NCBI GenBank assembly: GCA_017549605.1 | Contig: JAFYUH010000067.1 | Coordinates: 1 to 44,405, forward strand | Direction: 5' to 3' | Origin: Bacteroidales bacterium | Lineage (GTDB): Bacteria; Bacteroidota; Bacteroidia; Bacteroidales; F082 | DNA: 44,405 nt | Shown: piece after piece, positions 5,143 to 37,257 of the stretch | How positions within the stretch are numbered: position 1 is the first letter of the stretch | Layout of the letters: each line of letters opens with the position of its first letter | Made by a program: the position numbers and the translations under genes | Notes under the pieces: generated by a model | What the model saw: the letters and a program-made list of their open reading frames with translations, nothing else | The model's database searches: none | Told to the model about the DNA's origin: nothing

Positions 5143-7255
5143 TCCTAAGAATGATGTATTGTGGAGGGTGTTTCTTGTTTACTTTATCGTTGTCGCTGTC
5201 GGGGTGTGGGTTATCCTTGCGATGGTTAGGATACAGGTTAAGGAGAAGGATGAACTTCTTGAGAGGGCAAGTAAAAGAGAACTGAAAATCAGAGATGAGA
5301 AAGCGCATAGGGGTAATGTCATCTCTAAAAACGGAACCTTGTTGGCTACTTCGGTGCCAAGATATAGCATCTATTTCGATCCTGTTTCTGTTGAAAAGGA
5401 GTTGTTCAATAGAGAAGTTACTCAGTTGGCTGATAGCTTGAGCCGTTTGTTGAAGAACAAGTCGAAACAGCAATATGTCTCTTATCTTAAAGACGCTCGC
5501 GCTAAAGGAAGACGTTATGTTAAGATTGCCAATAAGATAAGTGTTGCTGATTATAAAAGGATGCAGAAATTTCCAATCTTCAGAGCTGGAAAGAATAAAG
5601 GCGGTTTTATAGCAGAGAGAAGTTATGTGAGAGAGTTGCCTTATGGTGAGTTGGCGGCTCGTACCATCGGATATGTCAGGGAGGAAGAAAATATTTTCGT
5701 AGGACTTGAAGGTGCTTATAATAGTAGTCTTAGAGGCAGTGACGGAAAGCAGTTGGTCAGGCGTATCAACGGTAACTTCTGGATGCCAATGCCTTCGTCT
5801 GATAATGTTGATCCAGTAAACGGTGATGATATCTATACTTCTATAGATATTGAGATACAGGATGTTGCGGAGAATGCGCTTAAAAAATGCCTTGTAGAAA
5901 ATGACGCTCTTCAGGGTTGCGTGGTTCTTATGGATGTCAAGTCTGGCTTTGTTGAGGTCATGGCGTCTTTGAGCTATAATGAAGAGAAGAATAAATACGA
6001 AGAGGCTTATAACTTCGCATTGCGTCATAATGTGGAACCAGGTTCAACATTCAAGGCTATAACGATGTGTGCGCTCCTTGAGAACAATCCTGGTTTGGAT
6101 ATAGACAGCAAGCTTCATTTGGGAACTACCGACTATAAGGTCTTCTATAAAAGAACAATGCGTGACTCGCATCGCGTTACTGATGAGAAAGGTTATACAA
6201 CAATACGCAATGCCTTTGAACAGTCGTCGAATATCGCTTTCGCGACATTGGTGGAAGATGCTTTTGTTGATAATCCTCAGAGATATATCGACTTTATTTA
6301 TAAGACAAAGATTCAGGAACCTTTAAACCTTGACATAAAAGGCGAAGCTAAACCTGATATCAAAACTACAAAAGATAAAAGATGGTCTAAGTTGTCATTG
6401 CCATGGATGTCTATTGGCTATGAGGTGATGATGACACCGATACAGATACTTACGTTCTATAATGCTATAGCAAATGACGGCGTGATGGTTAAGCCTCAAT
6501 TCGTTAAGGAGATACGTCACGGCAATGAGGTTAAGCAAGTTTTTGACACTATAGTGATAAACGAACGTATCGCTTCAGCGGGAACGATAGAAACCTTGCA
6601 AGAGCTTTTGGAAGGCATTGTGCAAAATGGTACGGCTAAGAATATGAGCAAGTTGGGTTTCTCTGTTGCTGGTAAGACCGGTACAGCTCAGATCTCACAA
6701 GGTTCTGCTGGATATAACAAGAAAAACTATACTGCTACATTCGTGGGCTATTTCCCAGCTGATGAACCTAAGTATTCTTGTATCATAGTTGTCAGCAACC
6801 CTCGCGGCAAAAAATATTACGGCAGCTCTGTATCTGGTCCGGTGTTTAAGGAAATTGCTGAGAAAATCTATGCGACACGTTTGGGAGTCGTTGATGAAAC
6901 TGGCGAATATCAGGCTGACTGCAACTCTTTCGTAGGTTCATCGATGGTGTATTTCAACGATTTCCTTGATTATTGCAATACGGAAAATATATCATTTGTC
7001 GATAACGTACAAGATAACGAATGGGTTTCTGTAAATCAAGCCAATGATGAATTGTTTGTGAACTCTGTGGAGTTTGAGGATAATGTAGTTCCGGATGTTA
7101 AGGGTATGAGCGTGACAGATGCTGTATATCTTTTGGAATCGATGGGATGGAAGGTGAAGTTTGAAGGATATGGCAGGGTGAAGTCACAGTCTGTGAAACC
7201 TAATTCAGAATTAAGAAAAGGAAGTGTTATTAACTTAGTTTTAAGTTCAAAATGA
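5132..7255 (+). CDS. ftsI: Division transpeptidase FtsI (PBP3-like, with PASTA domain)
   Basis: This class B penicillin-binding protein of 707 residues cross-links septal peptidoglycan. It has one N-terminal membrane segment, a dimerisation domain, and a transpeptidase domain with the nucleophile motif STFK (Ser305), SSN (365-367) and KTG (515-517). A single PASTA domain ends the protein, beginning VVPDVKGMSVTDAVYLLES. The start is set by the ATG at 5132, preceded by AGGAGG at 5121-5126, an unusually strong Shine-Dalgarno for this phylum; an in-frame TTG at 5105 is upstream of it. The stop overlaps the murE start by four bases. Partner of FtsW, encoded at 10580-11788. Confidence 0.95.
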   Translation: MKIDPKNDVLWRVFLVYFIVVAVGVWVILAMVRIQVKEKDELLERASKRELKIRDEKAHRGNVISKNGTLLATSVPRYSIYFDPVSVEKELFNREVTQLADSLSRLLKNKSKQQYVSYLKDARAKGRRYVKIANKISVADYKRMQKFPIFRAGKNKGGFIAERSYVRELPYGELAARTIGYVREEENIFVGLEGAYNSSLRGSDGKQLVRRINGNFWMPMPSSDNVDPVNGDDIYTSIDIEIQDVAENALKKCLVENDALQGCVVLMDVKSGFVEVMASLSYNEEKNKYEEAYNFALRHNVEPGSTFKAITMCALLENNPGLDIDSKLHLGTTDYKVFYKRTMRDSHRVTDEKGYTTIRNAFEQSSNIAFATLVEDAFVDNPQRYIDFIYKTKIQEPLNLDIKGEAKPDIKTTKDKRWSKLSLPWMSIGYEVMMTPIQILTFYNAIANDGVMVKPQFVKEIRHGNEVKQVFDTIVINERIASAGTIETLQELLEGIVQNGTAKNMSKLGFSVAGKTGTAQISQGSAGYNKKNYTATFVGYFPADEPKYSCIIVVSNPRGKKYYGSSVSGPVFKEIAEKIYATRLGVVDETGEYQADCNSFVGSSMVYFNDFLDYCNTENISFVDNVQDNEWVSVNQANDELFVNSVEFEDNVVPDVKGMSVTDAVYLLESMGWKVKFEGYGRVKSQSVKPNSELRKGSVINLVLSSK

Positions 7256-8709
7256 AAAAGATAAACGACATATTAAAAAGATGTGACATCATTGAGACTG
7301 TCGGACGTGACGACAGAAGTGTCTCGGGTTTGGCTTTCGACTCTAGAAAGTCGGCTGAAGATGTGGCTTTCTTCGCGGTACGCGGAACACAAGTCGATGG
7401 TCATGACTATATTTCTAAAGCTATAGAACAAGGTTCTAGCGTCATCGTGTGCGAACGTCTTCCTGAGAATGTCAGCGATGAGGTTACTTATTATGTCGTG
7501 GAAAATACAGCCAAGGCTTTAGGTTATGCTGCTTCAGAGTTTTACGGAAGACCGTCAGAGAAATTGCGTCTCGTCGGCGTTACCGGCACTAATGGCAAGA
7601 CAACCATTGCGACTTTGCTGTACAGGCTTTTCTTTAACGCTGGATATCCTTGCGGCTTGTTGTCGACAATAGAGAATAGAATCAATAATGTTGTGGTTCC
7701 GTCGACACATACTACAGGTGATCAGCTGCAGATCAACGAGATGTTGAGAAAGATGGTCGACGCTGGATGTGAATATGCTTTTATGGAAGTCAGTTCACAT
7801 GCCGTTGATCAGGATAGAATCGCTGGACTTCGTTTCGAAGGCGGCATATTCACCAACCTCACTCATGATCATCTTGACTATCATAAGACAGTGGCGGCAT
7901 ATCGTGATGCCAAGAAGAAATTCTTTGATAATCTTGAATCATCGGCATTTGCTCTTACAAACCTCGATGACAAGAACGGCATGGTGATGCTTCAGAATAC
8001 AAAGGCAAAGAAAAAGACATATTCTTTAAGAACGGATGCTGATTTCAAAGGCGTTGTCTTGGAAAGCTATTTCGATGGTATGGAACTTAAGATCAATAGA
8101 AATAATGTGTTCACATACTTAGTCGGAAAGTTTAATGTAAGTAATTTGCTTGCGATCTTTGGCGCAGCCTCATTATTGGGAATGAATGACGACGATTTGT
8201 TAAAAGGTGTCAGCCAGCTCCAGAGCGCTCCTGGCAGATTCCAAGTCGTTCAGTCTGAAGCGGGAATAGTCGGTATCGTGGATTATGCCCATACTCCTGA
8301 TGCTTTGAAGAACGTGCTTGACACTATCAATGAGATAAGAACGCATAATGAGACTCTTATCACTATAGCAGGCGCCGGCGGCAACAGAGACGCTGCCAAG
8401 AGACCGGAGATGGCGGCTGTTGCAGTGGCGAAGAGCGACAGACTCATACTCACCAGCGACAATCCTCGTTTCGAAGAACCGGAAGAGATTATAAGACAGA
8501 TGCGTGCTGGTGTCGGCGGCGAGTATTATAATAAGGTGCTGAGCATAACAGATAGAAGAGAAGCTATCAGGACAGCTGTGGCGCTAGCGAAGAGAGGCGA
8601 TATCATCCTCGTGGCAGGAAAAGGCCATGAAGACTATCAGGATGTGAAAGGCGTGAAACATCATTTTGACGATGTTGAAGAATTGACAAAAGCATTTAAC
8701 GAAAAATAA
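7252..8709 (+). CDS. murE: UDP-MurNAc-L-Ala-D-Glu:meso-diaminopimelate ligase MurE
   Basis: The 485-residue Mur ligase adds the third amino acid of the stem peptide. The three domains are all present: N-terminal UDP-binding domain with DSRKSAED, central ATPase with GTNGKT (112-117), substrate motif STHTTGD, the HAVDQDRI region and LTHDHLDYHKT, and C-terminal domain with YAHTPDAL and the DNPR motif (403-406). DNPR is the signature of meso-DAP rather than lysine specificity, so the peptidoglycan is of the DAP type. It overlaps ftsI by four bases and ends 12 bp before mraY. Confidence 0.96.
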   Translation: MKKINDILKRCDIIETVGRDDRSVSGLAFDSRKSAEDVAFFAVRGTQVDGHDYISKAIEQGSSVIVCERLPENVSDEVTYYVVENTAKALGYAASEFYGRPSEKLRLVGVTGTNGKTTIATLLYRLFFNAGYPCGLLSTIENRINNVVVPSTHTTGDQLQINEMLRKMVDAGCEYAFMEVSSHAVDQDRIAGLRFEGGIFTNLTHDHLDYHKTVAAYRDAKKKFFDNLESSAFALTNLDDKNGMVMLQNTKAKKKTYSLRTDADFKGVVLESYFDGMELKINRNNVFTYLVGKFNVSNLLAIFGAASLLGMNDDDLLKGVSQLQSAPGRFQVVQSEAGIVGIVDYAHTPDALKNVLDTINEIRTHNETLITIAGAGGNRDAAKRPEMAAVAVAKSDRLILTSDNPRFEEPEEIIRQMRAGVGGEYYNKVLSITDRREAIRTAVALAKRGDIILVAGKGHEDYQDVKGVKHHFDDVEELTKAFNEK

Positions 8710-8721
8710 AATTATTAAAAG

Positions 8722-10002
8722 ATGTTGTATTACTTATTTGAATATCTGGATAAATGCTGCGACTTCCCTGGCGCAGGTATGTTTACATACGTAACATTCC
8801 GTGCCTTGTTCGCGATAATATTGTCATTGGTGATATCGATATGGTTCGGCAAATATTTTATCAAGTTATTGAAAAGACATCAGATATCAGAGACACAGAG
8901 AGATGAGAGCATAGATCCATTCAATACACAGAAAAAAGGCGTGCCTACAATGGGCGGTCTCATCATCATAACAGCGATCTTGATACCATGTCTCTTGATA
9001 GGTAAGTTGAAAAACACTTATATGATATTGATGATAATAACAACAATATTGTTGGGTGTTGTCGGTTTCGCTGACGATTATATCAAGACTTTCAAAAAGA
9101 AAAAAGACGGTCTCAATGGCTGGTATAAAGTAGCGGCTCAGATACTTCTCGGACTTATCGTCGGACTTACATTACGTTTCAGTCCAGCGGTGGTGATGAA
9201 TGAGAAGGTTGAGACAAAGATTGAAAACAACAAGGAAGTTGTCATCAAGACTCCAGACGTAAAGTCAACAAGAACAACTATCCCTTTTATCAAGGATAAC
9301 AACTTGAACTATTCAGATTTGTTCAGATTCTTGGGCGAGCCATATAAATATTGGGCTGGCTGGATCTTCTTCGTGGTGTTGACAGTCTTTGTCGTGACAG
9401 CGGTGTCTAACGGATCAAACCTCAATGACGGCATGGATGGCATGGCGGCGGGCAACTCGTCTATAATGGGTATCGCCATCGGAATCTTGGCGTATGTGTC
9501 AAGTAACCTCGTCATGGCGGACTATCTGAATATCATGTTTATTCCAGGCAGTGAGGAAGTCGTGGTGTTCATGTGTGCCTTCGTAGGTGCCTTGATAGGA
9601 TTCTTATGGTACAATTCATATCCTGCACAGATATTCATGGGCGACACGGGCAGCCTTACAATAGGCGGCATCATCGCTGTGTCTGCCATCATAATACATA
9701 AGGAATTGCTGCTTCCATTGATATGCGGCGTCTTCTTGTGGGAGAGCGTGTCTGTGATATTGCAGAAGTTCTATTATAAAGCAGGAAAGAGAAAAGGCGT
9801 CAAACAGCGTCTTTGGAAAAGAACGCCGGTGCATGATCATTACAGAACATCATTGGCATTGGTAGAGAAAAACGACCCTGGATGCAAGGTGATGTTCAAA
9901 GGCTCGTCTCAGCTTTATCACGAGACAAAGATAACATTCCGCTTCTGGATTATAAGCATAATACTTGCAGCAGTAGCAATATTAACATTGAAAATTAGAT
10001 AA
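8722..10002 (+). CDS. mraY: Phospho-N-acetylmuramoyl-pentapeptide transferase MraY
   Basis: This 426-residue polytopic membrane enzyme transfers phospho-MurNAc-pentapeptide to undecaprenyl phosphate, forming lipid I. Recognisable motifs are KKGVPTMGG, FADDYIKTFKKKKDGL (catalytic aspartates), NGSNLNDGMDGMAAG and FMGDTGSLTIGG, and the C-terminal region has KRTPVHDHY. A hydrophilic insertion with EKVETKIENNKEVV lies between membrane segments, making it longer than the E. coli enzyme (360 aa); Bacteroidetes MraY proteins are generally this long. It is followed after 24 bp by the truncated murD. Confidence 0.96.
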   Translation: MLYYLFEYLDKCCDFPGAGMFTYVTFRALFAIILSLVISIWFGKYFIKLLKRHQISETQRDESIDPFNTQKKGVPTMGGLIIITAILIPCLLIGKLKNTYMILMIITTILLGVVGFADDYIKTFKKKKDGLNGWYKVAAQILLGLIVGLTLRFSPAVVMNEKVETKIENNKEVVIKTPDVKSTRTTIPFIKDNNLNYSDLFRFLGEPYKYWAGWIFFVVLTVFVVTAVSNGSNLNDGMDGMAAGNSSIMGIAIGILAYVSSNLVMADYLNIMFIPGSEEVVVFMCAFVGALIGFLWYNSYPAQIFMGDTGSLTIGGIIAVSAIIIHKELLLPLICGVFLWESVSVILQKFYYKAGKRKGVKQRLWKRTPVHDHYRTSLALVEKNDPGCKVMFKGSSQLYHETKITFRFWIISIILAAVAILTLKIR

Positions 10003-10025
10003 CGATATATAATACACTAGATATT

Positions 10026-10574
10026 ATGACATTAGAACAATTGGCAAAGCAAGGTAGAAGAACAGCTACAATGACAACAGCTGCTACTATCACATCAAAA
10101 ATGAGTCAGATAAGAAAAGAAAGCATCAGACAGGCTTTCTGTGATTTTGAAAATGTGAAATATAGATATGAATATGTTGACGTCGTTGATGGTGTTACAT
10201 ATTATGATGACTCAGCGGCATCTTCAACAGAGGCTACTTGGTTCTCATTCGACAATATGCATCAGCCAGTGATATGGATCACTTATGGCAACAACAACGA
10301 TTGCGAAGACTTGATAGTTCAGGTAAAGAGACATGTCAAGGCTATAATATGTATTGGCAATAACACAGAAAAGATCCATAGGGTTTATGATGATATCTTG
10401 AAGGACAATGTCGTCGACTGTGACTCTTTGGCTAAGGCTGTGAGATTGGCTTCTGTTATGGCAGAGTCTGGCGATAGCGTGATGCTTTCTCCTGCTACAT
10501 ATGCTAATTCTGACTATGACTCATATATGGACAGAGGCAACGATTTCAAACAATTGGTTTATTCTTTAAAATAA
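10026..10574 (+). CDS. Truncated MurD: C-terminal Mur-ligase domain only, motifs degenerate
   Basis: The 182-residue ORF lies exactly where Bacteroidetes carry murD (between mraY and ftsW). Residues from about 28 onward align by eye with the C-terminal third of MurD: IRKESIRQAFCDFENVKYRYEYV, then VDGVTYYDDSAASST, then GDSVMLSPATYANSD and YMDRGNDFKQLV. A full MurD is about 440 residues; the UDP-MurNAc-Ala domain and the ATPase domain with GTNGKT are absent. The remaining domain has lost the DSKATN motif (DDSAASS at 61-67, lysine replaced) and SPACASFD (SPATYANSD at 155-163). The frame is open with no stop, and spacing to both neighbours is short (24 and 5 bp), so it is probably still translated. 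It cannot be a D-Glu ligase alone. It may be a decaying pseudogene or a kept structural domain. Confidence 0.8.
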   Translation: MTLEQLAKQGRRTATMTTAATITSKMSQIRKESIRQAFCDFENVKYRYEYVDVVDGVTYYDDSAASSTEATWFSFDNMHQPVIWITYGNNNDCEDLIVQVKRHVKAIICIGNNTEKIHRVYDDILKDNVVDCDSLAKAVRLASVMAESGDSVMLSPATYANSDYDSYMDRGNDFKQLVYSLK

Positions 10575-10579
10575 AAATA

Positions 10580-11788
10580 ATGAAACTGTTTAATAAGATA
10601 TTTCAAGGAGACCGGGTCATCTGGATGATTGTTGCCATGTTGACTTTGGTATCGCTGTTGGCTGTATATAGCGCGACGGCCACCTATGCCAATGTGAAAT
10701 ACGGCGGCAGCAATACACACGCCTTGTTGCGTCATGCTGTGACGTTAGCATTGGGTCTGGTTGCTGTGTATGCGTCTCATCGATTGAAATATACTTATTA
10801 TTCTAAATTGTTTCAGATCGCATTCTGGGTCTCGATTCCTTTGTTGGCTTATACGTTGTTTCGTGGGGCTGACTATAACGATGCGAAACGTGTAGTTGAG
10901 ATTTTCGGCATTTCGTTTCAGAGTAGCGATTTCGCCAAGATAGCTCTTATGGGTTATCTGGCAAGAGAACTGACTATAAGACAGGACGAGATAAAGAGTT
11001 TCAAAAGCGCTTTTATTCCATTGATGTTGCCGGTCCTGGTGATAGTGGGTCTGATATTCCCAGAGAACTTCTCAACAGCGGGTATCTTGTTCGCCAGTTG
11101 CATGGTGCTCTTGTTTGTTGGAAGAATCAATATGAAATATCTTGCTATATTCTTGGCTGGAGCTTTGGTCATCATGAGCATATATATAATAATAGTGTTG
11201 AACGTTGCAGAAGATAAAGGTAGGACAGGAGTTTGGGTTCAACGTATAGAGAGTTTCGTTGAGAAATTCAAGAAAGATGAAGATAAAAGCGTTGAAGATA
11301 TTGCTAGAGAAGAGAATGCCGAAGACTTTCAGGCGATACAGTCTAAGATTGCCATTGCTGGCGGCGGATTGTTGGGAAAAGCACCGGGAAGAAGCACTCA
11401 GCGTAACTATCTTCCACACCCATATTCTGATTTTATATTTGCCATTATCGTAGAGGAATATGGTTTGCTGGGTGGTGCCTTCGTGGTATTGCTTTATCTT
11501 ATATTACTATATCGAGCCATTCGGATTATGGTCACGATACCGCAGTCGTTCGGCGGTTTCGTGGCTTTCGGTCTGGCGTTCATGCTGGTGATGCAGGCCA
11601 TGGTGAATATGGGCGTCGCTACTGGAATATTCCCTGTGACGGGACAGCCGCTGCCGTTCGTGAGCATGGGCGGAACGTCGCTGCTGTTTACAGGCTGTGC
11701 CTTTGGAATAATATTGAGTGTATCAAAAGAAATAGATAAGATAAATGAAAGAAAAAATGAACTCACAACAACCGAAAGTGATAATTAG
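10580..11788 (+). CDS. ftsW: Septal peptidoglycan polymerase FtsW (SEDS family)
   Basis: A 402-residue polytopic membrane protein of the RodA/FtsW/SpoVE family, which polymerises lipid II at the septum together with FtsI. It has around ten hydrophobic segments, a long periplasmic loop with an acidic/basic insert (EKFKKDEDKSVEDIAREE), the family block GGGLLGKAPGRSTQRNYLPHPYSDFIFAII and the C-terminal GQPLPFVSMGGTSLLF. Position between the murD remnant and murG favours FtsW over RodA. The end overlaps the murG start. Confidence 0.94.
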   Translation: MKLFNKIFQGDRVIWMIVAMLTLVSLLAVYSATATYANVKYGGSNTHALLRHAVTLALGLVAVYASHRLKYTYYSKLFQIAFWVSIPLLAYTLFRGADYNDAKRVVEIFGISFQSSDFAKIALMGYLARELTIRQDEIKSFKSAFIPLMLPVLVIVGLIFPENFSTAGILFASCMVLLFVGRINMKYLAIFLAGALVIMSIYIIIVLNVAEDKGRTGVWVQRIESFVEKFKKDEDKSVEDIAREENAEDFQAIQSKIAIAGGGLLGKAPGRSTQRNYLPHPYSDFIFAIIVEEYGLLGGAFVVLLYLILLYRAIRIMVTIPQSFGGFVAFGLAFMLVMQAMVNMGVATGIFPVTGQPLPFVSMGGTSLLFTGCAFGIILSVSKEIDKINERKNELTTTESDN

Positions 11789-12869
11789 TGGCGGTGGTAC
11801 AGGAGGTCATATCTTTCCTGCTATAGCAATCGCCGACAGTCTGAAGAAACGTTATCCTCAGGCTGAGATACTTTTTATAGGTGCCAAGAACCGTATGGAG
11901 ATGGATAGAGTGCCGAAGGCCGGTTATCCTATAGAGGGATTGTGGATTAGCGGATTTAAAAGAGAACTTTCATTGGATAATCTCAGCTTTCCTTTCAAGC
12001 TTATCAGCAGTATGATAAACGCAAGAAGGATATTGAAGAGATTCAGACCTGATGTGGTGATAGGCGTGGGAGGATTCGCTAGCGGCCCTACTATGAAGAC
12101 TGCCGCCTCGATGAACATACCTATCGTGATACAAGAACAGAATTCCTATCCGGGAATAACAAATAAGATAGTAGCTAAGAAAGCCGCCAAGATATGCGTG
12201 GCTTACGACAATATGGAACAGTGGTTCCCTAAAGATAAAATAGTCTTGACTGGTAATCCGTTGAGAAATAATATAGTCCCGATGGATGACAGAAGAGACG
12301 AAGGCGTGAAGTTCTTTGGCCTCTACCCTGAAAAGAAAACGATATTGTTGGTCGGCGGAAGCCAGGGCGCTCTTGGAATCAACAGAGGCATCTCTGCACA
12401 GCTCGCTTCTTTTAAGGAAAATGACTATCAGATGATATGGCAGACCGGTAATCATTATTACGAAAAGGCTCTTAAGGAAGTGGAGGAAAACGGACTTCAG
12501 GACAGAATAAAATGCACTGTCTTCATCGATAGAATGGACCTCGCTTACGCTGCGGCTGACGTGGTCATCTCTCGTGCCGGCGCGATGTCGATATCAGAGC
12601 TCTCTCTGCTCCATAAGGCGGTGGTGTTCGTGCCGCTACCTACAGCAGCAGAGGACCATCAGACTAAGAACGCGATGAGTCTCGTGAATGCCGACGCTGC
12701 TATGATAGTGAAGAACTCGGAGACAGAGAAAGAACTGCTTCCTGCGGTATTCGGCTTGTTGGGTGATGTCGACAAGCAAAATGAAATGAAAGGCAATATC
12801 GCTAAGTTCGCTAGACCTAATGCGGCAGAGGATATTGTAGATCAGATAGAAATGATATTGAATAAATAA
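11757..12869 (+). CDS. murG: UDP-GlcNAc:lipid I N-acetylglucosamine transferase MurG
   Basis: This 370-residue GT28 glycosyltransferase converts lipid I to lipid II on the inner membrane face. It shows the N-terminal ISGGGTGGHIFPAIAIAD, the VVIGVGGFASGP and QEQNSYPGITNKI blocks, GGSQGALGIN at the domain junction and the C-terminal nucleotide-sugar site with SRAGAMSISEL and PLPTAAEDHQ. The ATG at 11757 is preferred because family members begin 5-8 residues before the GGGTGGH block; an in-frame ATG at 11745 is also possible. Either start overlaps ftsW. Confidence 0.95.
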   Translation: MNSQQPKVIISGGGTGGHIFPAIAIADSLKKRYPQAEILFIGAKNRMEMDRVPKAGYPIEGLWISGFKRELSLDNLSFPFKLISSMINARRILKRFRPDVVIGVGGFASGPTMKTAASMNIPIVIQEQNSYPGITNKIVAKKAAKICVAYDNMEQWFPKDKIVLTGNPLRNNIVPMDDRRDEGVKFFGLYPEKKTILLVGGSQGALGINRGISAQLASFKENDYQMIWQTGNHYYEKALKEVEENGLQDRIKCTVFIDRMDLAYAAADVVISRAGAMSISELSLLHKAVVFVPLPTAAEDHQTKNAMSLVNADAAMIVKNSETEKELLPAVFGLLGDVDKQNEMKGNIAKFARPNAAEDIVDQIEMILNK

Positions 12870-12877
12870 TATTTGTC

Positions 12878-14227
12878 ATGAATAAGATTGCTAAACAAAA
12901 CATATATTTCTTGGGTATAGGTGGCATAGGAATGAGTGCCTTGGCTCGTTATTTCTATAACAAAGGATGTCAGGTGTCGGGTTATGACAAGACACCGTCG
13001 CCATTGACCAAGAAGTTGGAAGAAGAAGGCATTCTTATTCATTACGAAGACTATCCTGCATTGATACCTGAGAATGTGGATCTCGTGATACTCACTCCGG
13101 CGATACCTTCGGATTCTAAGGAACTCGCTTATCTTCGTGAAAAGGGCGTGAGGATAATAAAACGCGCTCAGGTGTTGGGTGAGATATCTCGTCAGTGCGA
13201 CACTGTGGCTGTCGCTGGCAGTCATGGCAAGACAACCGTTACATCATTGGTATCGCATCTTTTGCATTATGCCCAGAAACCGATGTCGGCTTTCATAGGC
13301 GGCATAGCAAAGAATATAAACAGCAATGTGATTATCGGTGATGAAAACGATGAGGTAGTTGTCATGGAGGCTGATGAATTCGACAGGTCATTCTTGCAGA
13401 TAACACCCTATATCAGCATTGTGACATCAATAGATGCGGATCATCTCGATATCTATGGCGATGAAGAGCAAGTCGTTGAGGCTTTCAACCAATTCGTTGA
13501 CAAGACAAAGTCTGATGGCGTGGTGATATGTAATAGCGCATTGCCTATAGTCACAGATAGAAAGAAACTTACTTACGGCTTGAAAGACGCCGACGTGATG
13601 GCTCGTAACATAAGGGTGGTAGACGGCATGACGAGATTCTCTGTCGTGACATCGGAAGGGATGGACTTTGGAGAATATAAGATGCAGCTCTTTGGCGAGC
13701 ATAATGTCATGAATGCCTTGTCGGCTATCATGGCATGTCTGCAGCTTCATGTCGATATGAAAACCATAAGAGAAGGCCTCGCTGCTTTCCAAGGAGTGGC
13801 TCGTCGTTTCGACATAAGAGTCAAGGATGAGAAGGTGTGCTATATCGACGATTACGCTCATCATCCAGAAGAGATAAAGGCCTCGTTGAAAGCGGTCAAG
13901 ACGATATTCCCTGATAAGAAACTGACTTTGGTGTTCCAGCCTCATCTCTTTTCAAGAACCAACGACTTCATGGATGGATTCGCAGAGGCGCTGTCGCTCG
14001 CCGATCAGTTGCTGCTGATGGAGATTTATCCGGCTCGCGAAAAGCCGATGCCTGGAGTGACGTCATCGGTCTTGCTTGAGAAAATCACTTGCAAGAAAAA
14101 GCAGATATGCCAGAAGGAAGATCTTCTTGATACGATAAAGAAAATAAAACCAGAACTTATTGTGACAATGGGAGCTGGCGACATCGACCGTTTTGTGCCA
14201 CAAATAGAAACATTGCTTAAGTCATGA
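12878..14227 (+). CDS. murC: UDP-N-acetylmuramate:L-alanine ligase MurC
   Basis: The 449-residue first Mur ligase adds L-alanine to UDP-MurNAc. Motifs in order: GIGGIGMSALARYFY (UDP site), AGSHGKTTVTSL (P-loop), EADEFDRSFLQI, ITSIDADHLDIYG-like SIVTSIDADHLDIYG, and C-terminal YIDDYAHHPEEIKASL and FQPHLFSRTNDF. Length is normal. It follows murG after 8 bp and overlaps ftsQ by four bases. All three Mur-ligase domains are intact, in contrast to the murD position upstream. Confidence 0.96.
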   Translation: MNKIAKQNIYFLGIGGIGMSALARYFYNKGCQVSGYDKTPSPLTKKLEEEGILIHYEDYPALIPENVDLVILTPAIPSDSKELAYLREKGVRIIKRAQVLGEISRQCDTVAVAGSHGKTTVTSLVSHLLHYAQKPMSAFIGGIAKNINSNVIIGDENDEVVVMEADEFDRSFLQITPYISIVTSIDADHLDIYGDEEQVVEAFNQFVDKTKSDGVVICNSALPIVTDRKKLTYGLKDADVMARNIRVVDGMTRFSVVTSEGMDFGEYKMQLFGEHNVMNALSAIMACLQLHVDMKTIREGLAAFQGVARRFDIRVKDEKVCYIDDYAHHPEEIKASLKAVKTIFPDKKLTLVFQPHLFSRTNDFMDGFAEALSLADQLLLMEIYPAREKPMPGVTSSVLLEKITCKKKQICQKEDLLDTIKKIKPELIVTMGAGDIDRFVPQIETLLKS

Positions 14228-27287: not shown

Positions 27288-28499
27288 ATGAGAATTCCAA
27301 GTGTGATATATAATAGAGATAGTTATATCAATCGAATCAAACCTTTTATGCGTACAAATACAATTAAGGTTATGGTTGGTCATCGTCGAGTTGGCAAAAG
27401 TTATATTCTTTATCAATTGATAAACTTGATCAATTCGGAAGAGTCTAATGCTAACATTATATATATCAATAAGGAAGATCTGGATTTTGATTTTATTCGC
27501 ACTTATCGTGATTTATATTCGTATGTAAAAGATAGATTGTTGGAAGAGCGGAGAAACTATATTTTTATAGATGAAATTCAGGAAATAGAGGATTTTCATC
27601 TGGCAATACGATCTTTGGCTTTGAACGATAATAATGATATTTACATAACAGGAAGTAATTCAAAAATGTTGTCGAGTGAATTGGCGAATGAGTTAGGAGG
27701 ACGATATGTTGAGTTTAAGATATATAGTCTTTCTTATATGGAATTTTTGCAGTTTCACAAACTTGATAACGATGATGAGTCATTGGAGAAATATATTCAT
27801 TTTGGTGGTCTGCCGTATCTTATAAATATTCCTATGGAAGAGCAGATTGTGATGGAGTATGTTAAGAGTGTATATTCGACTATAGTGTTAAGGGATGTCA
27901 TTCAAAGGAAAAACATTCGTAATACGATTTTCTTGGAACAGCTGATACGTTTTCTTGCAGATAATACAGGAAGTTTGTTTTCGTCAAAAAGCATAAGCGA
28001 TTTTTTAAAGAGTCAGAATGTGAAATTGGCTTCCAATCAAGTTTCTGAATATGCTGATTATCTCGCAGAAGCATTTGTAGTGCATCGTATTGGAAGATAT
28101 GACGTTATAGGGAAGAGGTTTTTTGAAATAGGGGAGAAGTATTTTTTCGAAAATATGGGAATACGCAATGCTGTTGCTGGTTATAAGATTCAAGATAGAG
28201 CGAAACGTATTGAAAATGTTGTTTGTAATCATCTAATATATTGTGGTTATGAAGTTAAAGTAGGTACAATGATGTCAGAAGAGATAGATTTTGTCTGTAC
28301 TAGAAATGGTGAGACTATGTATGTACAAGTGTCAGCTGAATTATCTCGTCAAGAAACCATAGATCGAGAGTTTGGCAATCTTCTAAAAATAAAGGACAAC
28401 TATCCTAAGATTGTCGTTTCAGGAGAGCGCTCATTTGGAAATACATATCAAGGCATAAAACATATTTATATAAGAGATTTCTTGTCGGAAGAAATATAA
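27288..28499 (+). CDS. AAA-14/DUF4143 family ATPase
   Basis: A 403-residue P-loop ATPase with Walker A GHRRVGKS (31-38) and Walker B IFIDEIQ with Asp95-Glu96. A sensor-like TGSNSKML follows, then a linker with EFLQFHKL and GGLPYLIN, and the DUF4143 C-terminal domain (about 200-390) with a PD-(D/E)xK-like stretch EIDFVCTRNGETMYVQVSAEL. Such genes are abundant and scattered in Bacteroidetes; their role is unknown, and links to mobile or defence DNA have been suggested. It stands alone with its own promoter. Family call firm, function open. Confidence 0.88.
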   Translation: MRIPSVIYNRDSYINRIKPFMRTNTIKVMVGHRRVGKSYILYQLINLINSEESNANIIYINKEDLDFDFIRTYRDLYSYVKDRLLEERRNYIFIDEIQEIEDFHLAIRSLALNDNNDIYITGSNSKMLSSELANELGGRYVEFKIYSLSYMEFLQFHKLDNDDESLEKYIHFGGLPYLINIPMEEQIVMEYVKSVYSTIVLRDVIQRKNIRNTIFLEQLIRFLADNTGSLFSSKSISDFLKSQNVKLASNQVSEYADYLAEAFVVHRIGRYDVIGKRFFEIGEKYFFENMGIRNAVAGYKIQDRAKRIENVVCNHLIYCGYEVKVGTMMSEEIDFVCTRNGETMYVQVSAELSRQETIDREFGNLLKIKDNYPKIVVSGERSFGNTYQGIKHIYIRDFLSEEI

Positions 28500-30388: not shown

Positions 30389-32227
30389 TTAGTCAATTAT
30401 TGCTTTTTGTGTTCTGATTCCGTTTGCATCTGTCATTTGGATGATGTAAACTCCTTTTTCCAATGATGATGTTGAGATGACAGCTGATTCAAAAACGTTG
30501 TATTTTGCAACAGTGCGGCCCATCATGTCGATGATGCTTACTTGAGCATTGCCTTGGATGTTGTTGATGACTATTTCGCTATTGTTGATGTAAACGAATG
30601 CCTCTAATGTATTGCTTTCGATGCCAGTTGGTTCTGTAGTTGTAAGTACGAATCTGTTAGCTTCATCGTTGCTTGTTGCCATGAATGTATAGCTGTCTGT
30701 GTTAAGGTTGATGCTTGCGCCTGTGAGCATATCTTTGAGATATAATGTTTCGAACTCGCAGTTTTGTGCTTCAACAGAAATTGTATATTCACCCATTGTC
30801 ATAGCTTTGAATGATACTGGAATTTCTGTAACATCTTTGCTCATTGTTGCTACAGCGTAGTCCTTTCCTTCAGCTGTGATATAAAGCATTGCAGAAGTGC
30901 TGTTGTTGTGGCTGATTTTATCCAAGCCGATGCCTTCGTTGAAAGAAACGTAAGCGACGTCTTGGCAGTTGTTGCCGTTTACATTGATTCTCAAGCTGCC
31001 TTCAGAAACGCTTCTTGTAGCAGCAACTTGTTTGCTGATTTTAACGCTGCTATTTGCAGCTGTTGTCTGTACGAGAACTGACTGCATTGGCTCAATAGTT
31101 TCTTCACCGTCATATCTTGACAACCATTCGCCGTTTTCGCTGATTACGTAATAACCTTGAGAGAGGGCGGAGGCAGAGAAGTTGTTTTCGTTGATGTTAT
31201 GTGTGAAAGGATTGCCTATAAGATTGAAGCCTTTGAGTTCATTGCCTTCAGTGTAGCTGAGTGGGAATTCAACATCAGCGACGTTAAGCTCGCCATTGAG
31301 TTCTACTGTGATGTCGTTTTTACCAGCTGCATAGAGATAGCCGCGGCCTAATTCCAAAGTAGGGAAACCTATTCCGTCAGCGTCTAAGTAATATTCCCAT
31401 TCATGTTCTACTTCATCATAACGATAAAGGTCATGTGTGGCATTTGTTGGGATTGCGGCACCGCCAACGATAGGAGCGCTGATAGTGTTCCAGTATGATT
31501 GTGGAGTGAATGTTTTCTTCACTGTAGCCATAACGCCATCATTGTTGTGATAGAGCTGACCGCCGTTGATTATGAATTGACCAGCGAGGTTCATGCCGCC
31601 GGTTTCAACAACTGTGAGCACGCCACCTTCAACTACTTCTATGCTGTTACCTTCTGTAATTGTATATGTCTTTCCGTTAAAGTCTATTGTAATGTCTTTG
31701 TCGATTACGATGCCAGAACCTTCAGCATCTTTTAAAAGTGTTACAGTCTCTTCGTCTTGTGCTGCTTCAACAGCCTCTGCGAGAGATGTATATTTTGTGT
31801 CACCTATTTTAGCAATATAATCTGATTCGAAATAAACGATAAAAGGATTTTTTGTTGAACCAACCATTTTATCAGCTACAAAAGTCACAACCTCATGATT
31901 GGATGTTAAGTTTAATTCCTGTTTAAGATTATGATCATAAATTTTAAATGTAATAATGTCACCATTATCATCTTCTGCATTTCCATAAACTTGAAGATAT
32001 ATAATGTTTTTAGAGTTTGGTCTGCCAGCTCCACGACATTCGTTACCATTGAAAGCTCCAAGTTCAATATTATTGCCTTGAATTTCTCCATCAATTTTAA
32101 CTTGAGCAACAACTGTCATGTCACCACCCATGTACGAATTGTATTCATAATAGTTTTGGCTGTTTTGTCCAAAACTAAAAGAACATAGTGTTAATAGTAA
32201 TGTTAGTGTCGTTAAAATTCTTTTCAT
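30389..32227 (-). CDS. T9SS-secreted surface protein, 612 aa
   Basis: Signal peptide to FSFGQ (about residue 21). A first module (about 25-150) starts MTVVAQVKIDGEIQGNNIELGAF and contains NECRGAGRP; the same module occurs in the two larger neighbours. A single repeat unit follows (AKIGDTKYTSLAEAVEAAQ), then a short beta-helix stretch and a middle region with YWNTISAP and NLIGNPFTHNI. The end (about 540-612) is a type A T9SS sorting domain, with VSIIDMMGRTVAKYNV, LEKGVYIIQM and a terminal KAIID. This CTD differs from that of the two larger proteins. Destination: cell surface or outside. Ligand unknown. Confidence 0.82.
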   Translation of the reverse strand: MKRILTTLTLLLTLCSFSFGQNSQNYYEYNSYMGGDMTVVAQVKIDGEIQGNNIELGAFNGNECRGAGRPNSKNIIYLQVYGNAEDDNGDIITFKIYDHNLKQELNLTSNHEVVTFVADKMVGSTKNPFIVYFESDYIAKIGDTKYTSLAEAVEAAQDEETVTLLKDAEGSGIVIDKDITIDFNGKTYTITEGNSIEVVEGGVLTVVETGGMNLAGQFIINGGQLYHNNDGVMATVKKTFTPQSYWNTISAPIVGGAAIPTNATHDLYRYDEVEHEWEYYLDADGIGFPTLELGRGYLYAAGKNDITVELNGELNVADVEFPLSYTEGNELKGFNLIGNPFTHNINENNFSASALSQGYYVISENGEWLSRYDGEETIEPMQSVLVQTTAANSSVKISKQVAATRSVSEGSLRINVNGNNCQDVAYVSFNEGIGLDKISHNNSTSAMLYITAEGKDYAVATMSKDVTEIPVSFKAMTMGEYTISVEAQNCEFETLYLKDMLTGASINLNTDSYTFMATSNDEANRFVLTTTEPTGIESNTLEAFVYINNSEIVINNIQGNAQVSIIDMMGRTVAKYNVFESAVISTSSLEKGVYIIQMTDANGIRTQKAIID

Positions 32228-32279
32228 TTTTTTTTGATTTTAAATTTGATTTGACGTTCTTTTTTAAGCTTTGAGCTAT

Positions 32280-32333
32280 GGGCTGTGAACAGATTTCACA
32301 GCCCTTTAGCCCTTAGCCTTTAGACATTAGTCT
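32280..32333. repeat. Hairpin plus TTAGCCC-type 7-nt array between T9SS genes
   Basis: GGGCTGTGAA (32280-32289) pairs with TTCACAGCCC (32295-32304). TTTAGCC, CTTAGCC, TTTAGAC and ATTAGTC follow at 7-nt spacing. The arrangement copies that at 37161-37257. Confidence 0.65.
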
Positions 32334-35300
32334 TATTTAACAACTAATCTGCAATGTTTAACATTGCCATTATTAGTAACTCTGATTACGTAAATACCTG
32401 CTGCTTCTAAAGCATCGATAGTGTCAACATTTTGATATTCTGCAACCTTAACGCCGAGTGCGTTGAATACTTCAACTTTGTCGCATGTTGTTGTGAGGTT
32501 GATTTCTCTATCAGTTGTTGTTGGGTTAGGATAGATGTTGAAGTTGTTTGAAAGTTCTTCAAGACCTAATGTGCCACGTGATAATAAGTATGGGTCTCTG
32601 ATAGTACCGACTCTAGCATCGTTTGAATAGTTGATTACGTTGCTGAGAGCGTATTCTGTGTCTGTATCGATGTCGTAGCACTTGAATGTTACTTCTTCAA
32701 CATCATCGCCGAGGATTGTGAGGAAGAACATATAAGCGTCTAATGATTCAACATAGATAGGACGTGCGCTGCCGCGTACTTCGCCGTTTACGAATGCTGC
32801 AACTTCATAGTTAGCACCTTTAACATCAAGCATAGCAACCATTGTCATATTGTTTGCATATTGAGCTACAGATGGTACCCAGTAGTTGTTTTCAGCAGTG
32901 ATATTAGCTTTTACGCTTTCTTTTGAGGTTGTGTATGTGAAATCAACTGTTGTATTTGTGTTTGATCTGAAGTACATGTAACCTACACCTGGTTTCATGG
33001 TTTCGAGAGATCCCCACCATTTACCATCGATGTATTCTGCGAATCCATTACGTGTCTTGACCAAGTCTCCGTCTTCAGCCATTTCAACAGCGCTGAATGC
33101 TGTAGTAACAGAAGTTTCTTGTGTTAAAGGATATCCGATATAATTCCAACCTCTGTTATCTAATGTAATATAACATGTTGTATAATCTACGATATTACCT
33201 TTAATGCTTATTTTTTGATTGTTACTTACATTGATCTTGTATGATTGTGCTGGGTTTGTTGAATAGAGTGTGCCATTCCAGCCATCTGTAACATCGTATT
33301 CTGAGAATGCATTTCTAGTCTTAATCATTATTCCGTTTTCACCGAGTCCATTTTTTAATTGACCAAGAACATCACCTTCTACATAGTGTGAGAACCAATT
33401 CCAGCCTGATGCCAATTCTTGTGTGTTTATACGGAGAACAGTCCAGATTGCATCAACTTGATCTACAGTATATGTTTCTGGAACATTGCCTGTAACAACT
33501 GTTGATTCTTCATCAAATGCAGCGTTAGCGATAGATACTTCAACTGGCCATTCTGTTGAACCTGCTGTAACGTAGAGATATACATCGCCTTTGAGAACAG
33601 CGTTTGCACTTACAGTAACTGTACCGTTATTAGCTTTAGCGCTTGGATCGTGGAAGAAGATAGACTTGTTATCACCTTCTAAAGTACCACCATTTACAGT
33701 AAGATTATTTTCTTTGCTGTCTGAGTTGAGGAACTGACGTACTGCACGGTATGTTGATTTGATTGTACCGCCATTGATTGTTGTGTTAACATTGCCGATG
33801 TTGCCGTTTGTCAAAGCGTCGATACCGTAAGCCATGTCTGTACCGCCGAGGTGTTCTATTGTACCGCCATTGACTGTGAGTGTAGCACCTGGATTGTTAA
33901 AGATAACAGCTGAGTATCTTCCCCAACCGCTATTGACTGTAGCGACAACTGTCATCATACCACCGTTTGGAGCGTTGACTGTCAAAGTACCGTTGTTTTG
34001 GATAAGACCAAAGTTCTTTGTTGTGTTGTCTGTACCTTGGAGAGTCTTGCCGTTTAAGTTGAATGTAATAGTTTCACCAGCTTTGATTGTATAGACTTTA
34101 TCAGTTGTTATGTCTTTTGATAAACCAACTGTTGTGTAGTTCTTGTCCATTGCAACAGCAAAAGCTTCTGTTAATGTTACATAACCAACTTTACGTTCTG
34201 TAGCATTTGAGCTTGTTGCTTTTTCTACAACGTATGCTTCTGCTTCAACAACTGTCCATGTACCATTGCCATTATTTTGGAGAGCTAATGTTTCTGGAAT
34301 ATAAACTTCATTTGCCCAGAATTGATGGTTGACATCAGCATTGAAGGTACCTCCATTTACAATTACATTGTTAGTGTTTGCTTCCAAAGCATTGAAAATC
34401 CATGGTTTACCATTTGTACCATCACCAACATTGCCAAGGTGGAAGTAACCTCCATTAACTACTATACCTTCATCTCCACCGGTGTACATGTGAGAGTCTA
34501 TAGCTTTATCAAGTTTATATGTACCTCTGTTAATTGTGATTGTACAACCTGGCTCATAGTTTGCAATGAGTGCATATACTTTCTCATTTTTAGCACAAAT
34601 ATTAACTGTACCTGTCTTTTCTGTTGAATTATCTTCAAGGGTGAGGTGACCGTTGTTTTCTGTTGAGAAGAGACCTACGAGCATTGATGTGTTAGATTTA
34701 TAATTACCGCTGATAGTCTTTCCATTCAAGTCGATAGTTACAGTCTTGCCTTCAACTTTGAAGTAAGTGTCATACTTGCCATCTAAAGTTTCAGTAGCGA
34801 GTTCGTCAATTACTACATCTTTCAATACAACAACAGTTTCGCCGTTTTGTGCTGCGTCGATAGCATCTTGGATGCTTCCGAATGAGTCAACATCTTTACC
34901 TTCTGCATCAACAACTTTTGCTACGCTAGGAACAACTGTGTAAACACCATTTATATGTTTTACAGTGTGTTCTGCAACTGTTGTTGTAACTGCTGCACCT
35001 GCAGGAGCTGTAATTGTTGCGTCTGTAGCTGTGAGAACGTATTTTGCATATTGTGATGCACTCAAAGTGCCAACTGTGTTATCGCCTTCAAATTTGAAAG
35101 TTTGAACTCCAGAATAACCGCTTCTTTCCCAAATAGCGATGCTGCTGATATTGCTGTTCTTGACTGTGATAGTCTTTGAAGCATAGTTTTGGATATAAAG
35201 ACCCTTTGCTACGTTAGTCATTGTTACGTTTTCAAGAGTTGCGTTTGAACCATATACCCAGTGCATACCGTAGTTGGCACCATCAACAGTAACATTCTTA

Positions 35301-37120
35301 ACTACAATAGTTGAAGTGCTCTTGTTAGCATATAAGAAACCATAATTATAGTTTTTAACTGTACAGTTTTCAACAGTAATGCTTCCAATGGTGTTTGTAG
35401 TAATAGCATAACCTGTACCGTTGATGAAATTAACGTTTTTAACTGTTACCTTAATATTTTTACCTGTAACTGAGATATTACCTGTATAGTTATTATTTGC
35501 ACCATCAATTGTGAGGTTCTTTTTAACTGTAACATCATCTGTAATGTCTGCGATAAGAGTGATTGTTTCACCTGCTGTTGCTGCAGAAACAGCAGCTGAG
35601 AGAGTTGTATAGCCAGTTTCACCAATCTTAGCAACTATTGCTGCTGGAAGTGTTTCTGTATATTCATCACCGCAACCGCATTTGTATGTTACAGAACCGT
35701 CTACACCGTAAGTTGGTTCGACTCTGCTGATTTCTACATGGTTGTGTTTGATAGTTGCATCATTAGCTTTGATGTAAATGACGAGGTCTGTTTTACCATC
35801 GTTATTCCAGTCAATCTTATAATCGAATTCTCTTTTATATTGGATGCTTACCCACATTGAAGCGTAATTTTTGCCAGCATCGAGGATAGAAGCGAGTGTC
35901 TTTTCATTGTATGTGCCATTTGAACCAGGAGTAAATACTCTTGCAACATTAGCGTCTACGCCTTCTGGCATTGTGATTCTGAATCCAATCCAGTTGCTTA
36001 CAATACCTAAACCGTTTGCGATGCAAGGAACTTCGCCGTCGACTGTAATTGTAGCAGATTCATAACCAAATGGACTTACTTCATAATCTGTAGAAGAAAC
36101 GATTTTTTCTGCTGTAGGTAGAGCTACGACAGTCCAATAATCATCCTCACCTTTAACAGTGATGCAATTTGCAATAACGAAGTTTGTGCCAGCGCCTTCT
36201 GCTGCGTTGTTCATAGGGTCGAAGTTGTAGAACTTACCTTTTTGGATAGAAACTTTAGCTGTACCGTTTTTGTAGTTTGCATCAACGCAGTTGATTGTAT
36301 ATTCGTAGCTACCTTGGTATGGTTCAACTTGGAATGTACCATCCATAATTTTTACTTCACCTTTAGTGACAGAAACTGCTGTTGTAGCACCTTTATATGT
36401 GCCGCCATAGATTTCTACGCTAGCGCCAGAAGAACCGTCAGAAGCACCGACGATGATACAGTAGTCGTTAGATTCAATTGTCATGCCACCGAACCATACG
36501 TAAGCACCGTCTTGTACACGGAATGCAGCTTCACCGAATTCGGCTTTAACAGTGATGTTTTTCTTTGAATAGTTGATCCAAGCTTTGCTTTTTGTGATAA
36601 CTGCAGTTCTGAGAAGTTCAATGACATCACCTGTCTTTGCTGCTGTGTATGCAGCATCGAATGTTTTGTAGTATTTTGTGCCTATTTTTGCAACAGCAGA
36701 TGTGAAGTGTGTGATGTATTGATCTGCCAATAATCCAGTTTCTTTGTCTAAATAGGCAACACTACCTATGTGTGCGTCTTCTATATAATTTACTGTATTT
36801 TCACAAATAGAATTCAATACAGTGTTGTTTGTATGATCGTATAATTTAAATGATATCTTATCATTTTGTTCACCAACAATGGTTAAATATACTAAGCCAT
36901 ATTGACTGTCTGAAGGTCTTGCGCTTCCGCGAAATTCATCACCGCAGAAAGCTCCAATTTCAATGTTGTTACCTTGTATCTCGTTATCAATCATGATTTG
37001 AGTTACAATGGTCATGTTTGATGAGTACTTGTTTGGAGTTGTACCCCAATCTTGTCCAAAAACTACAGAACAAAACATCATCAAAAATGATAGAATAAAT
37101 GTCTTTGTCTTCATCTTCAT
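32333..37120 (-). CDS. Giant T9SS-secreted beta-helix surface protein, 1595 aa
   Basis: Signal peptide to VVFGQ (about residue 23). The N-terminal module has MTIVTQIMIDNEIQGNNIEIGAF and CGDEFRGSARP. Then come several units opening with AKIGxTxYxTLxxAVxAAxxGETI-like text (for example AKIGETGYTTLSAAVSAA), each leading into right-handed parallel beta-helix repeats rich in VTVKN, TINGGT and NNGTLTV. Near the end are two GWNWFSHY/GWNYIGYP repeats, a second copy of the first module (NNMTMVAMLDVKGANYEVAAF, VNGEVRGSARP) and a T9SS type A domain beginning NIYPNPTT. It is probably a long surface fibre or adhesin; the ligand is unknown. Paralogous to both neighbours. Confidence 0.85.
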   Translation of the reverse strand: MKMKTKTFILSFLMMFCSVVFGQDWGTTPNKYSSNMTIVTQIMIDNEIQGNNIEIGAFCGDEFRGSARPSDSQYGLVYLTIVGEQNDKISFKLYDHTNNTVLNSICENTVNYIEDAHIGSVAYLDKETGLLADQYITHFTSAVAKIGTKYYKTFDAAYTAAKTGDVIELLRTAVITKSKAWINYSKKNITVKAEFGEAAFRVQDGAYVWFGGMTIESNDYCIIVGASDGSSGASVEIYGGTYKGATTAVSVTKGEVKIMDGTFQVEPYQGSYEYTINCVDANYKNGTAKVSIQKGKFYNFDPMNNAAEGAGTNFVIANCITVKGEDDYWTVVALPTAEKIVSSTDYEVSPFGYESATITVDGEVPCIANGLGIVSNWIGFRITMPEGVDANVARVFTPGSNGTYNEKTLASILDAGKNYASMWVSIQYKREFDYKIDWNNDGKTDLVIYIKANDATIKHNHVEISRVEPTYGVDGSVTYKCGCGDEYTETLPAAIVAKIGETGYTTLSAAVSAATAGETITLIADITDDVTVKKNLTIDGANNNYTGNISVTGKNIKVTVKNVNFINGTGYAITTNTIGSITVENCTVKNYNYGFLYANKSTSTIVVKNVTVDGANYGMHWVYGSNATLENVTMTNVAKGLYIQNYASKTITVKNSNISSIAIWERSGYSGVQTFKFEGDNTVGTLSASQYAKYVLTATDATITAPAGAAVTTTVAEHTVKHINGVYTVVPSVAKVVDAEGKDVDSFGSIQDAIDAAQNGETVVVLKDVVIDELATETLDGKYDTYFKVEGKTVTIDLNGKTISGNYKSNTSMLVGLFSTENNGHLTLEDNSTEKTGTVNICAKNEKVYALIANYEPGCTITINRGTYKLDKAIDSHMYTGGDEGIVVNGGYFHLGNVGDGTNGKPWIFNALEANTNNVIVNGGTFNADVNHQFWANEVYIPETLALQNNGNGTWTVVEAEAYVVEKATSSNATERKVGYVTLTEAFAVAMDKNYTTVGLSKDITTDKVYTIKAGETITFNLNGKTLQGTDNTTKNFGLIQNNGTLTVNAPNGGMMTVVATVNSGWGRYSAVIFNNPGATLTVNGGTIEHLGGTDMAYGIDALTNGNIGNVNTTINGGTIKSTYRAVRQFLNSDSKENNLTVNGGTLEGDNKSIFFHDPSAKANNGTVTVSANAVLKGDVYLYVTAGSTEWPVEVSIANAAFDEESTVVTGNVPETYTVDQVDAIWTVLRINTQELASGWNWFSHYVEGDVLGQLKNGLGENGIMIKTRNAFSEYDVTDGWNGTLYSTNPAQSYKINVSNNQKISIKGNIVDYTTCYITLDNRGWNYIGYPLTQETSVTTAFSAVEMAEDGDLVKTRNGFAEYIDGKWWGSLETMKPGVGYMYFRSNTNTTVDFTYTTSKESVKANITAENNYWVPSVAQYANNMTMVAMLDVKGANYEVAAFVNGEVRGSARPIYVESLDAYMFFLTILGDDVEEVTFKCYDIDTDTEYALSNVINYSNDARVGTIRDPYLLSRGTLGLEELSNNFNIYPNPTTTDREINLTTTCDKVEVFNALGVKVAEYQNVDTIDALEAAGIYVIRVTNNGNVKHCRLVVK

Positions 37121-37160
37121 AGTAATTTGATTTAATAGATGTTATTTTACTCATAAAGCT

Positions 37161-37257
37161 ATGAGCTGTGAGTTAGGGGCAAAACCCCATAACTCACTTC
37201 CCACAGCTCATTTGCTTTTAGCCATTGGCCGTTAGCCGTTAGCCATTAGCCTTATTT
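37161..37257. repeat. Hairpin plus TTAGCCA/G 7-nt array between T9SS genes
   Basis: ATGAGCTGTG (37161-37170) pairs with CACAGCTCAT (37202-37211), with an inner AGTTA.GGGG/CCCC.TAACT stem. Next is a 7-nt array TTAGCCA-TTGGCCG-TTAGCCG-TTAGCCA-TTAGCC running to the stop of the 1522-aa gene. It could attenuate readthrough on the minus strand, but a T-run is lacking. Confidence 0.7.

Follow-up and report, generated by a model that had tools for sequence, protein, structure and literature searches.

The dcw cluster of a Bacteroidales bacterium contains, at the position where a full-length murD of about 440 codons would be expected, an open frame of only 182 codons, which raises the questions of what this frame encodes, how its host carries out the ligase step, and why the frame has been kept. 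The window considered here (the whole 44,405-nucleotide stretch that was analysed) is contig C45 of a 2.53-Mb genome that is 84.75% complete.

Anatomy of the MurD-C Frame

The frame (10026..10574, + strand), referred to here as MurD-C or the stump, is a stand-alone remnant of MurD that starts with ATG and is comprised of the end of the central domain, the hinge, and the C-terminal domain. It lies on the same strand behind murE (7252..8709, a full three-domain Mur ligase by Pfam and NCBIfam) and mraY (8722..10002, recognized by Glycos_transf_4, with the MraY signature under its cut-off), and is followed by ftsW (10580..11788) and murG (11745..12869), both assigned with Pfam, and by murC (12878..14227), again a full three-domain Mur ligase by Pfam and NCBIfam. 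An A/T-rich gap of 23 nt (10003..10025, + strand) separates the mraY stop from the stump start, and it is here that the ∼240 N-terminal codons present in relatives are missing.

A Pfam search with the stump revealed Mur_ligase_C (PF02875) alone (E = 1.3e-8, residues 47–157), where the score of 36.1 bits against a cut-off of 28.4 identifies a C-terminal Mur ligase domain. The NCBIfam murD model TIGR01087 matched residues 9–178 at profile positions 269–439 of 441 with E = 8e-32, and the homology to MurD is therefore far beyond chance and restricted to the end of the protein; the score of 110.9 bits is about half the equivalog cut-off of 211.95, which places the stump outside the MurD equivalogs. 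By Pfam and TIGR01087 alike, the N-terminal UDP-substrate domain and the ATP-binding central domain are absent. A profile of the stump family matched 11 PDB sequences, every one of them a MurD, and neither NCBIfam nor Pfam gave a family specific to the stump. Within the remaining part, the MurD motif NDSKATN has become DDSAASS, and the K348 and SPACASFD regions are also altered (residue numbers follow E. coli MurD and were placed on the stumps by alignment). MurD-C shares with MurD the homology over the last ∼170 positions and the place in the dcw cluster, but differs from it in having neither the UDP domain nor the ATP-binding domain and in its changed substrate and ATP residues. The original prediction had described 182 codons matching only the C-terminal domain of MurD, in an open frame packed between mraY and ftsW, with DSKATN changed to DDSAASS and SPACASFD altered, and the profile searches and alignments agree with it on each of these points. 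An artefact of a contig edge or of a single assembly was considered and rejected, as the short frame behind mraY recurs across the genus and in separately deposited named genomes.

A Probable Replacement Ligase in the Same Genome

It had also been predicted that an essential step must have passed to another protein, to be sought as a second, full-length MurD or as MurD2/MurL-type genes, and both were found on contig C100. A full-length MurD of 431 aa, of the MurD2 type (L005 1162-2457), lies there directly behind a homologue of the MurL epimerase on the same strand (L005 60-1169). The MurL homologue matched NF041275 with E = 2.9e-74 and 250.2 bits, below the equivalog cut-off of 700 bits, which belongs to the Xanthomonadales, the group for which the model is named. 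Where full MurD has D-H and D-K-G, the C100 ligase has EEHLDHF and GGFDRGIDY (L063), and the available text of PMC8788868 gives the Glu and Arg of these motifs (E-H and D-R-G) as the marks of the L-Glu enzyme MurD2 as opposed to MurD. A check of these patterns against 14 MurD2 proteins recovered the Glu motif in 13 and the Arg motif in 11, the pattern being unmatched or matched elsewhere in the remainder. The MurI racemase (TIGR00067) was found neither in the window genome (84.75% complete) nor in any of 36 genus genomes. With a MurD2-type ligase beside MurL and no MurI detected, gene content indicates that the ligase step is very probably done by another protein in this genome, as predicted.

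The arrangement resembles the MurD2/MurL pathway of Xanthomonas oryzae (available text of PMC8788868) in that MurL is followed by a MurD of the L-Glu type in a genome without MurI, but differs from it in that the MurL homologue scores 250 bits here, under the Xanthomonadales cut-off. The taxa named for MurD2/MurL in the available text of that study are Proteobacteria and actinobacteria, with no word beginning "bacteroid," and the stump is no component of the pathway as it is described there.

A murD split in trans was rejected as a candidate, since a spare MurD N terminus is absent from the Mur_ligase_M matches of the genome, which are MurE, MurC, MurF, a fusion of the MurF-alanine racemase type, MurD2 (two rows), a FolC-like protein, and one further weak match (E = 0.299); the fusion and the FolC-like protein were named by eye. 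The fusion of a MurF-like ligase to alanine racemase is located on contig C196 (L003 1-2391, − strand), with a separate MurF in L002. In five genus members (G019:C17, G021:C20, G024:C4, G028:C22, and G031:C23) the MurL and MurD2 matches fall in a single frame of 901–996 aa, which appears to be a natural MurL-MurD2 fusion protein.

Distribution of the Stump

An open stump frame was found in 33/36 genus genomes, the window genome included. The three genomes in which it was missed (G002, G003, and G006) are 62–72% complete, and G002 and G003 are also without an mraY match. One and the same set of 32/36 genus genomes gave both a MurL match and a MurD2 match above the murD cut-off. G023 (97% complete) and G016 (77%) have a stump, yet neither a MurL nor a MurD2 match was obtained in them. 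Scanning named genomes, for the most part rumen and gut Bacteroidales and in some cases duplicates of the G-numbered set, yielded 72 loci, one of them on a Candidatus Limimorpha equi contig, with 64 stumps and eight full MurDs; every one of the 72 has mraY upstream and ftsW downstream. No murG was detected in the ftsW–murC interval of two stump loci (L143 and L158), and the gene may have moved.

Across a sample of 148 Bacteroidales genomes, each at least 85% complete except for the window genome itself, MurI was detected in 90 genomes and MurL in a separate 52, and six genomes showed neither gene. The 52 MurL genomes divide into 22 with a stump, 27 with a full MurD, and three that cannot be judged (G055 and G159, with no mraY match, and G111, with mraY outside the cluster), so that all 49 judged MurL genomes carry one or the other form and 22/49 carry the stump. 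Twenty of the 22 stumps were identified by search and two diverged ones (G105 and G113) were added on inspection, and two of the 27 full MurDs are cut by contig ends (that of G185 is a full MurD so cut). Among the 90 MurI genomes no stump was seen; one of them, G160, was without a match, and in G182 a contig end interrupts the frame. Conversely, 22 of the 23 stump genomes in the sample have MurL. The one other, G050 (98% complete), has a diverged stump between mraY and ftsW (G050:C4:297600-304500, L213), and no MurL, MurI, or full MurD was found in it. In G087, G109, G121, G149, and G157 neither MurI nor MurL was found, and each has a full-length or edge-cut MurD. The short frames of G138 and G087 were excluded from the stump count, being N-terminal MurD sequence that runs into a contig end, and so were those of G182 and G041:C60, which contig ends also interrupt. 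Of 137 Bacteroidota genomes from outside the order, none gave MurL and 135 gave MurD frames of at least 431 aa, the other two giving no match to the MurD query, which was a stump from within the clade.

Collectively, these counts reveal the stump as a recurrent state in a MurL-bearing clade of Bacteroidales and not a peculiarity of one genome, and, judged by genes, the MurL/MurD2 route would reach a broad clade of the order that includes rumen and gut lineages. The full MurDs of MurL genomes (for example, L189–L208) retain intact ligase residues in the 23 examined, with no MurI found and mostly no transaminase. D-Amino-acid transaminase was considered as the source of D-Glu where full MurD and MurL coexist and was rejected as too rarely matched, with E ≤ 1e-30 in 11/148 genomes, of which one is above the cut-off and only G081, G134, and G055 are MurL genomes. 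DapF reportedly can have racemase activity (title of PMC5885031), which is one idea for the D-Glu source in these genomes.

Recurrence of the Truncation

On a tree of MraY, FtsW, and MurG built from 78 chosen rows of 132 loci, the stump label requires 12 changes, ten of which are forced by starred branches. The rows in which MurL was found, plus eight named full-MurD rows, are set apart from the others by one starred branch (98). A more careful tree of 41 of the 78 rows gave ten changes (10–11 over a bootstrap that had not settled), six of them forced. Clear cases of recurrence are G084, which lies inside G184 plus L128; G107, next to L116 and L141; G069, whose neighbor G176 belongs to its own genus; and G169, next to G047. 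In the tree of the MurD domain itself, for which 47 full-length rows and 12 less diverged stumps were chosen, starred branches likewise join G084 and G107 to full-length MurDs, but only two changes are forced overall, and a single stump clade is not rejected by this domain alone (AU p = 0.141, 167 columns). Consequently, the truncation count depends on the neighboring genes. Moreover, the changes cannot separate loss from regain, the deleted part being assumed never to return, and regain by transfer of a full murD would mean fewer truncations than changes. On the neighbor-gene trees, the N-terminal and central parts of MurD have been lost repeatedly within the MurL clade.

Start Site, Residue Conservation, and Selection

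The stump begins 1–101 nt past the mraY stop (19 loci), and its start is shared. In three sets of stumps, 16/19, 10/10, and 54/56 rows have a Met at the alignment position of the internal MTLEELALQG Met of full MurD, and the length from this Met is exactly 182 residues in 12/19 rows. In the full-length murD genes of MurL genomes, A makes up 50.5% of the 21 nt preceding the internal ATG, where the gene average is 33.2%, as compared with 34.6% in MurI genomes, 42.6% outside the order, and 52.4% at stump starts (13 starts). This A-richness ranks 11th of 440 columns, ten being as rich or richer without being starts; the columns richer in A include one near codon 40 and neighbors of the same site.

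Every one of 85 stump rows has Asp at position 317 and the Trp of the NxTW motif, and position 302 is Arg in 81 and Lys in 4. The ATP-side residues His267, Asn268, and Asn271, plus Lys348, are the first to go. Stumps outside the genus have Lys at 348 in 7/19 rows and Thr at 321 in 12/19, and several retain NDSKATN and SPACASFD. In the window clade, Lys319, Thr321, and Ser415 were each found in 0/10 rows, so that by residues these stumps do not qualify as MurD, and Lys is not among the five commonest states at position 348. In the 23 full MurDs of MurL genomes (22 of the 27 from the order sample plus G048), all examined ligase residues from Lys115 to Lys348, as well as Ser415, are present in 23/23, with Asn271 in 22/23, which argues that the catalytic residues decay only after truncation.

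Selection was estimated as dN/dS by the NG86 method at dS of 0.15 to 1.2, using 24 disjoint pairs of relatives drawn from 65 stumps (409 pairs in all). The stump median is 0.156 (range 0.036–0.469), as compared with 0.157 for FtsQ, 0.132 for MurC, 0.092 for FtsW, 0.090 for MurG, 0.067 for MraY, and 0.061 for MurE, and the window stump against its nearest named relative (L097) gives 0.131. The stump evolves faster than MraY, MurE, and MurG, with one pair as high as 0.469. Comparison of coding sequences thus shows the stump to be kept by purifying selection on its protein, looser than that on the surrounding enzymes. Retention of the stump had been proposed from the window alone and is borne out by its orthologues and their median; the two observations named beforehand as speaking against it, a full-length murD at the locus or frameshifted copies in near relatives, were looked for and not found. 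The original prediction is supported in part, and its scaffold role, with any partner, keeps the status of a proposal.

Possible Functions of MurD-C

On balance, and with modest assurance, the sequence evidence points to MurD-C being a functional non-catalytic protein that was left once the D-glutamate ligase MurD became dispensable, with docking as its most likely job; the tail probably has a job separate from the original MurD reaction. The clade carries MurL and a MurD2-type ligase and lacks MurI, a gene content that indicates a bypass of the D-glutamate ligase. Within it the upstream parts of MurD were lost repeatedly on the neighbor-gene trees, with the last ∼182 residues retained in the gap between mraY and ftsW and kept under purifying selection while the ATP-site and substrate residues decayed. 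This would imply that MurD always had a second, structural job in its C-terminal part, presumably docking within a complex of cytoplasmic precursor enzymes and the membrane (the MurG, MraY, and FtsW side), and that the docking module stayed at the locus after the enzyme was no longer needed. Thermotoga maritima MurD binds MurG and MreB, as cited in the available text of PMC6420597 and PMC4929429, which makes docking in a precursor or divisome complex the most economical idea. In those MurG/MreB-scaffolded Mur complexes MurD is a binder, so a non-catalytic role is plausible, but it is the full enzyme that was studied and the text available from the two papers has no mention of a stand-alone MurD domain. 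The evolutionary rate of the stump correlates best with FtsQ and FtsW (partial r = 0.33 and 0.32, as compared with 0.04 for MurG and −0.12 for MraY, in an exploratory analysis confounded by adjacency and recombination), which does not favor MurG or MraY as the partner. Against the docking explanation stand G050, outside the clade and without MurL and MurI, and G023 and G016, with a stump and neither a MurL nor a MurD2 match. The faster evolution of the stump than of MraY, MurE, and MurG and the compatibility of the MurD domain with one stump clade also count against it.

The same three genomes weigh on the proposal that MurD-C serves the replacement pathway itself as a subunit for regulation or assembly, which would bind MurD2, MurL, or MurE (or UDP-MurNAc-dipeptide) and tune or channel the conversion of L-Glu to D-Glu. 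We regard this as rather unlikely. The C-terminal domain of MurD is the part that holds D-Glu, NDSKATN and SPACASFD persist in several stumps outside the genus, and MurL accompanies the stump in 22/23 stump genomes of the Bacteroidales sample, but this last association may arise simply because MurD is dispensable only in the presence of MurL. Moreover, the gene sits between mraY and ftsW and not with murL-murD2, and substrate residues are not generally kept (Lys348 in 7/19 and Thr321 in 12/19 rows outside the genus, Lys319 in 0/10 of the window clade). That MurD-C gained a ligand-binding or enzymatic function of its own is improbable, as most stumps have lost His267, Asn268, and Asn271 along with the P-loop domain, and no new conserved motif was noticed in the stump alignments; the invariance of Asp317 and Arg/Lys302 in 85/85 rows can be counted in its favor, Arg302 being an ADP contact and hinge handle of MurD in the available text of PMC4816537.

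Two readings dispense with the protein altogether. A translational spacer that couples mraY to ftsW translation would suit the tight packing of the cluster, but is hard to reconcile with constraint on amino acids (dN/dS of 0.036 to 0.469 in 24 pairs), with residues kept across lineages, and with the near-constant length from the internal Met (182 in 12/19), and we hold it to be highly improbable. That the frame is a decaying pseudogene, or a product of misassembly, is more improbable still: domains and catalytic residues have indeed been lost, but the frame is open in 33/36 genus members (the misses being 62–72% complete) and 64 named loci, and its start, place, and selection are conserved.

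The sharing of one Met as the stump start suggests that a short product from an internal start may already have been made by the murD of this clade. We put forward tentatively, and as doubtful, that murD was here a two-product gene before truncation, in which the internal Met gives an essential 182-residue MurD-C and deletions repeatedly ended just upstream. The use of this Met by most stumps, the 182-residue length, and the A-rich 21 nt are suggestive of such an arrangement; against it speak the conservation of the same Met in MurI genomes and beyond the order and the A-richness of other columns. If this were true, the deletions would have exposed a hidden second gene within murD after MurL/MurD2 had freed the ligase.

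MurD is regarded simply as an enzyme and as a target for drugs. If its enzyme part was repeatedly lost with the tail kept, this would be natural evidence of a non-catalytic MurD task in wall synthesis or division. The idea of a Mur complex has long been suspected, yet the essentiality of MurD makes it hard to test; in this clade, evolution would have separated the two functions of MurD, such that MurD-C can be studied without the ligase. The clade concerned comprises bacteria from gut and environmental habitats whose wall appears to be made in part through an alternative route. In a search of open-licence papers, judged by titles and the openings of abstracts, no account of a stand-alone MurD domain or of MurL in Bacteroidota was recognized. 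Pseudoenzyme remnants are a known kind, but the recurrence and precision seen here have not been met in descriptions so far.

Other Features of the Window

A frame for a 403-aa ATPase-like protein (27288-28499, + strand) has a G+C content of 28–32%, as compared with ∼40% around it, and was possibly acquired. The − strand at 30389-41820 encodes three tandem secreted-looking proteins of 612, 1595, and 1522 aa. The two larger proteins end in near-identical repeat and sorting-type tails, and an N-terminal repeat style is common to all three.
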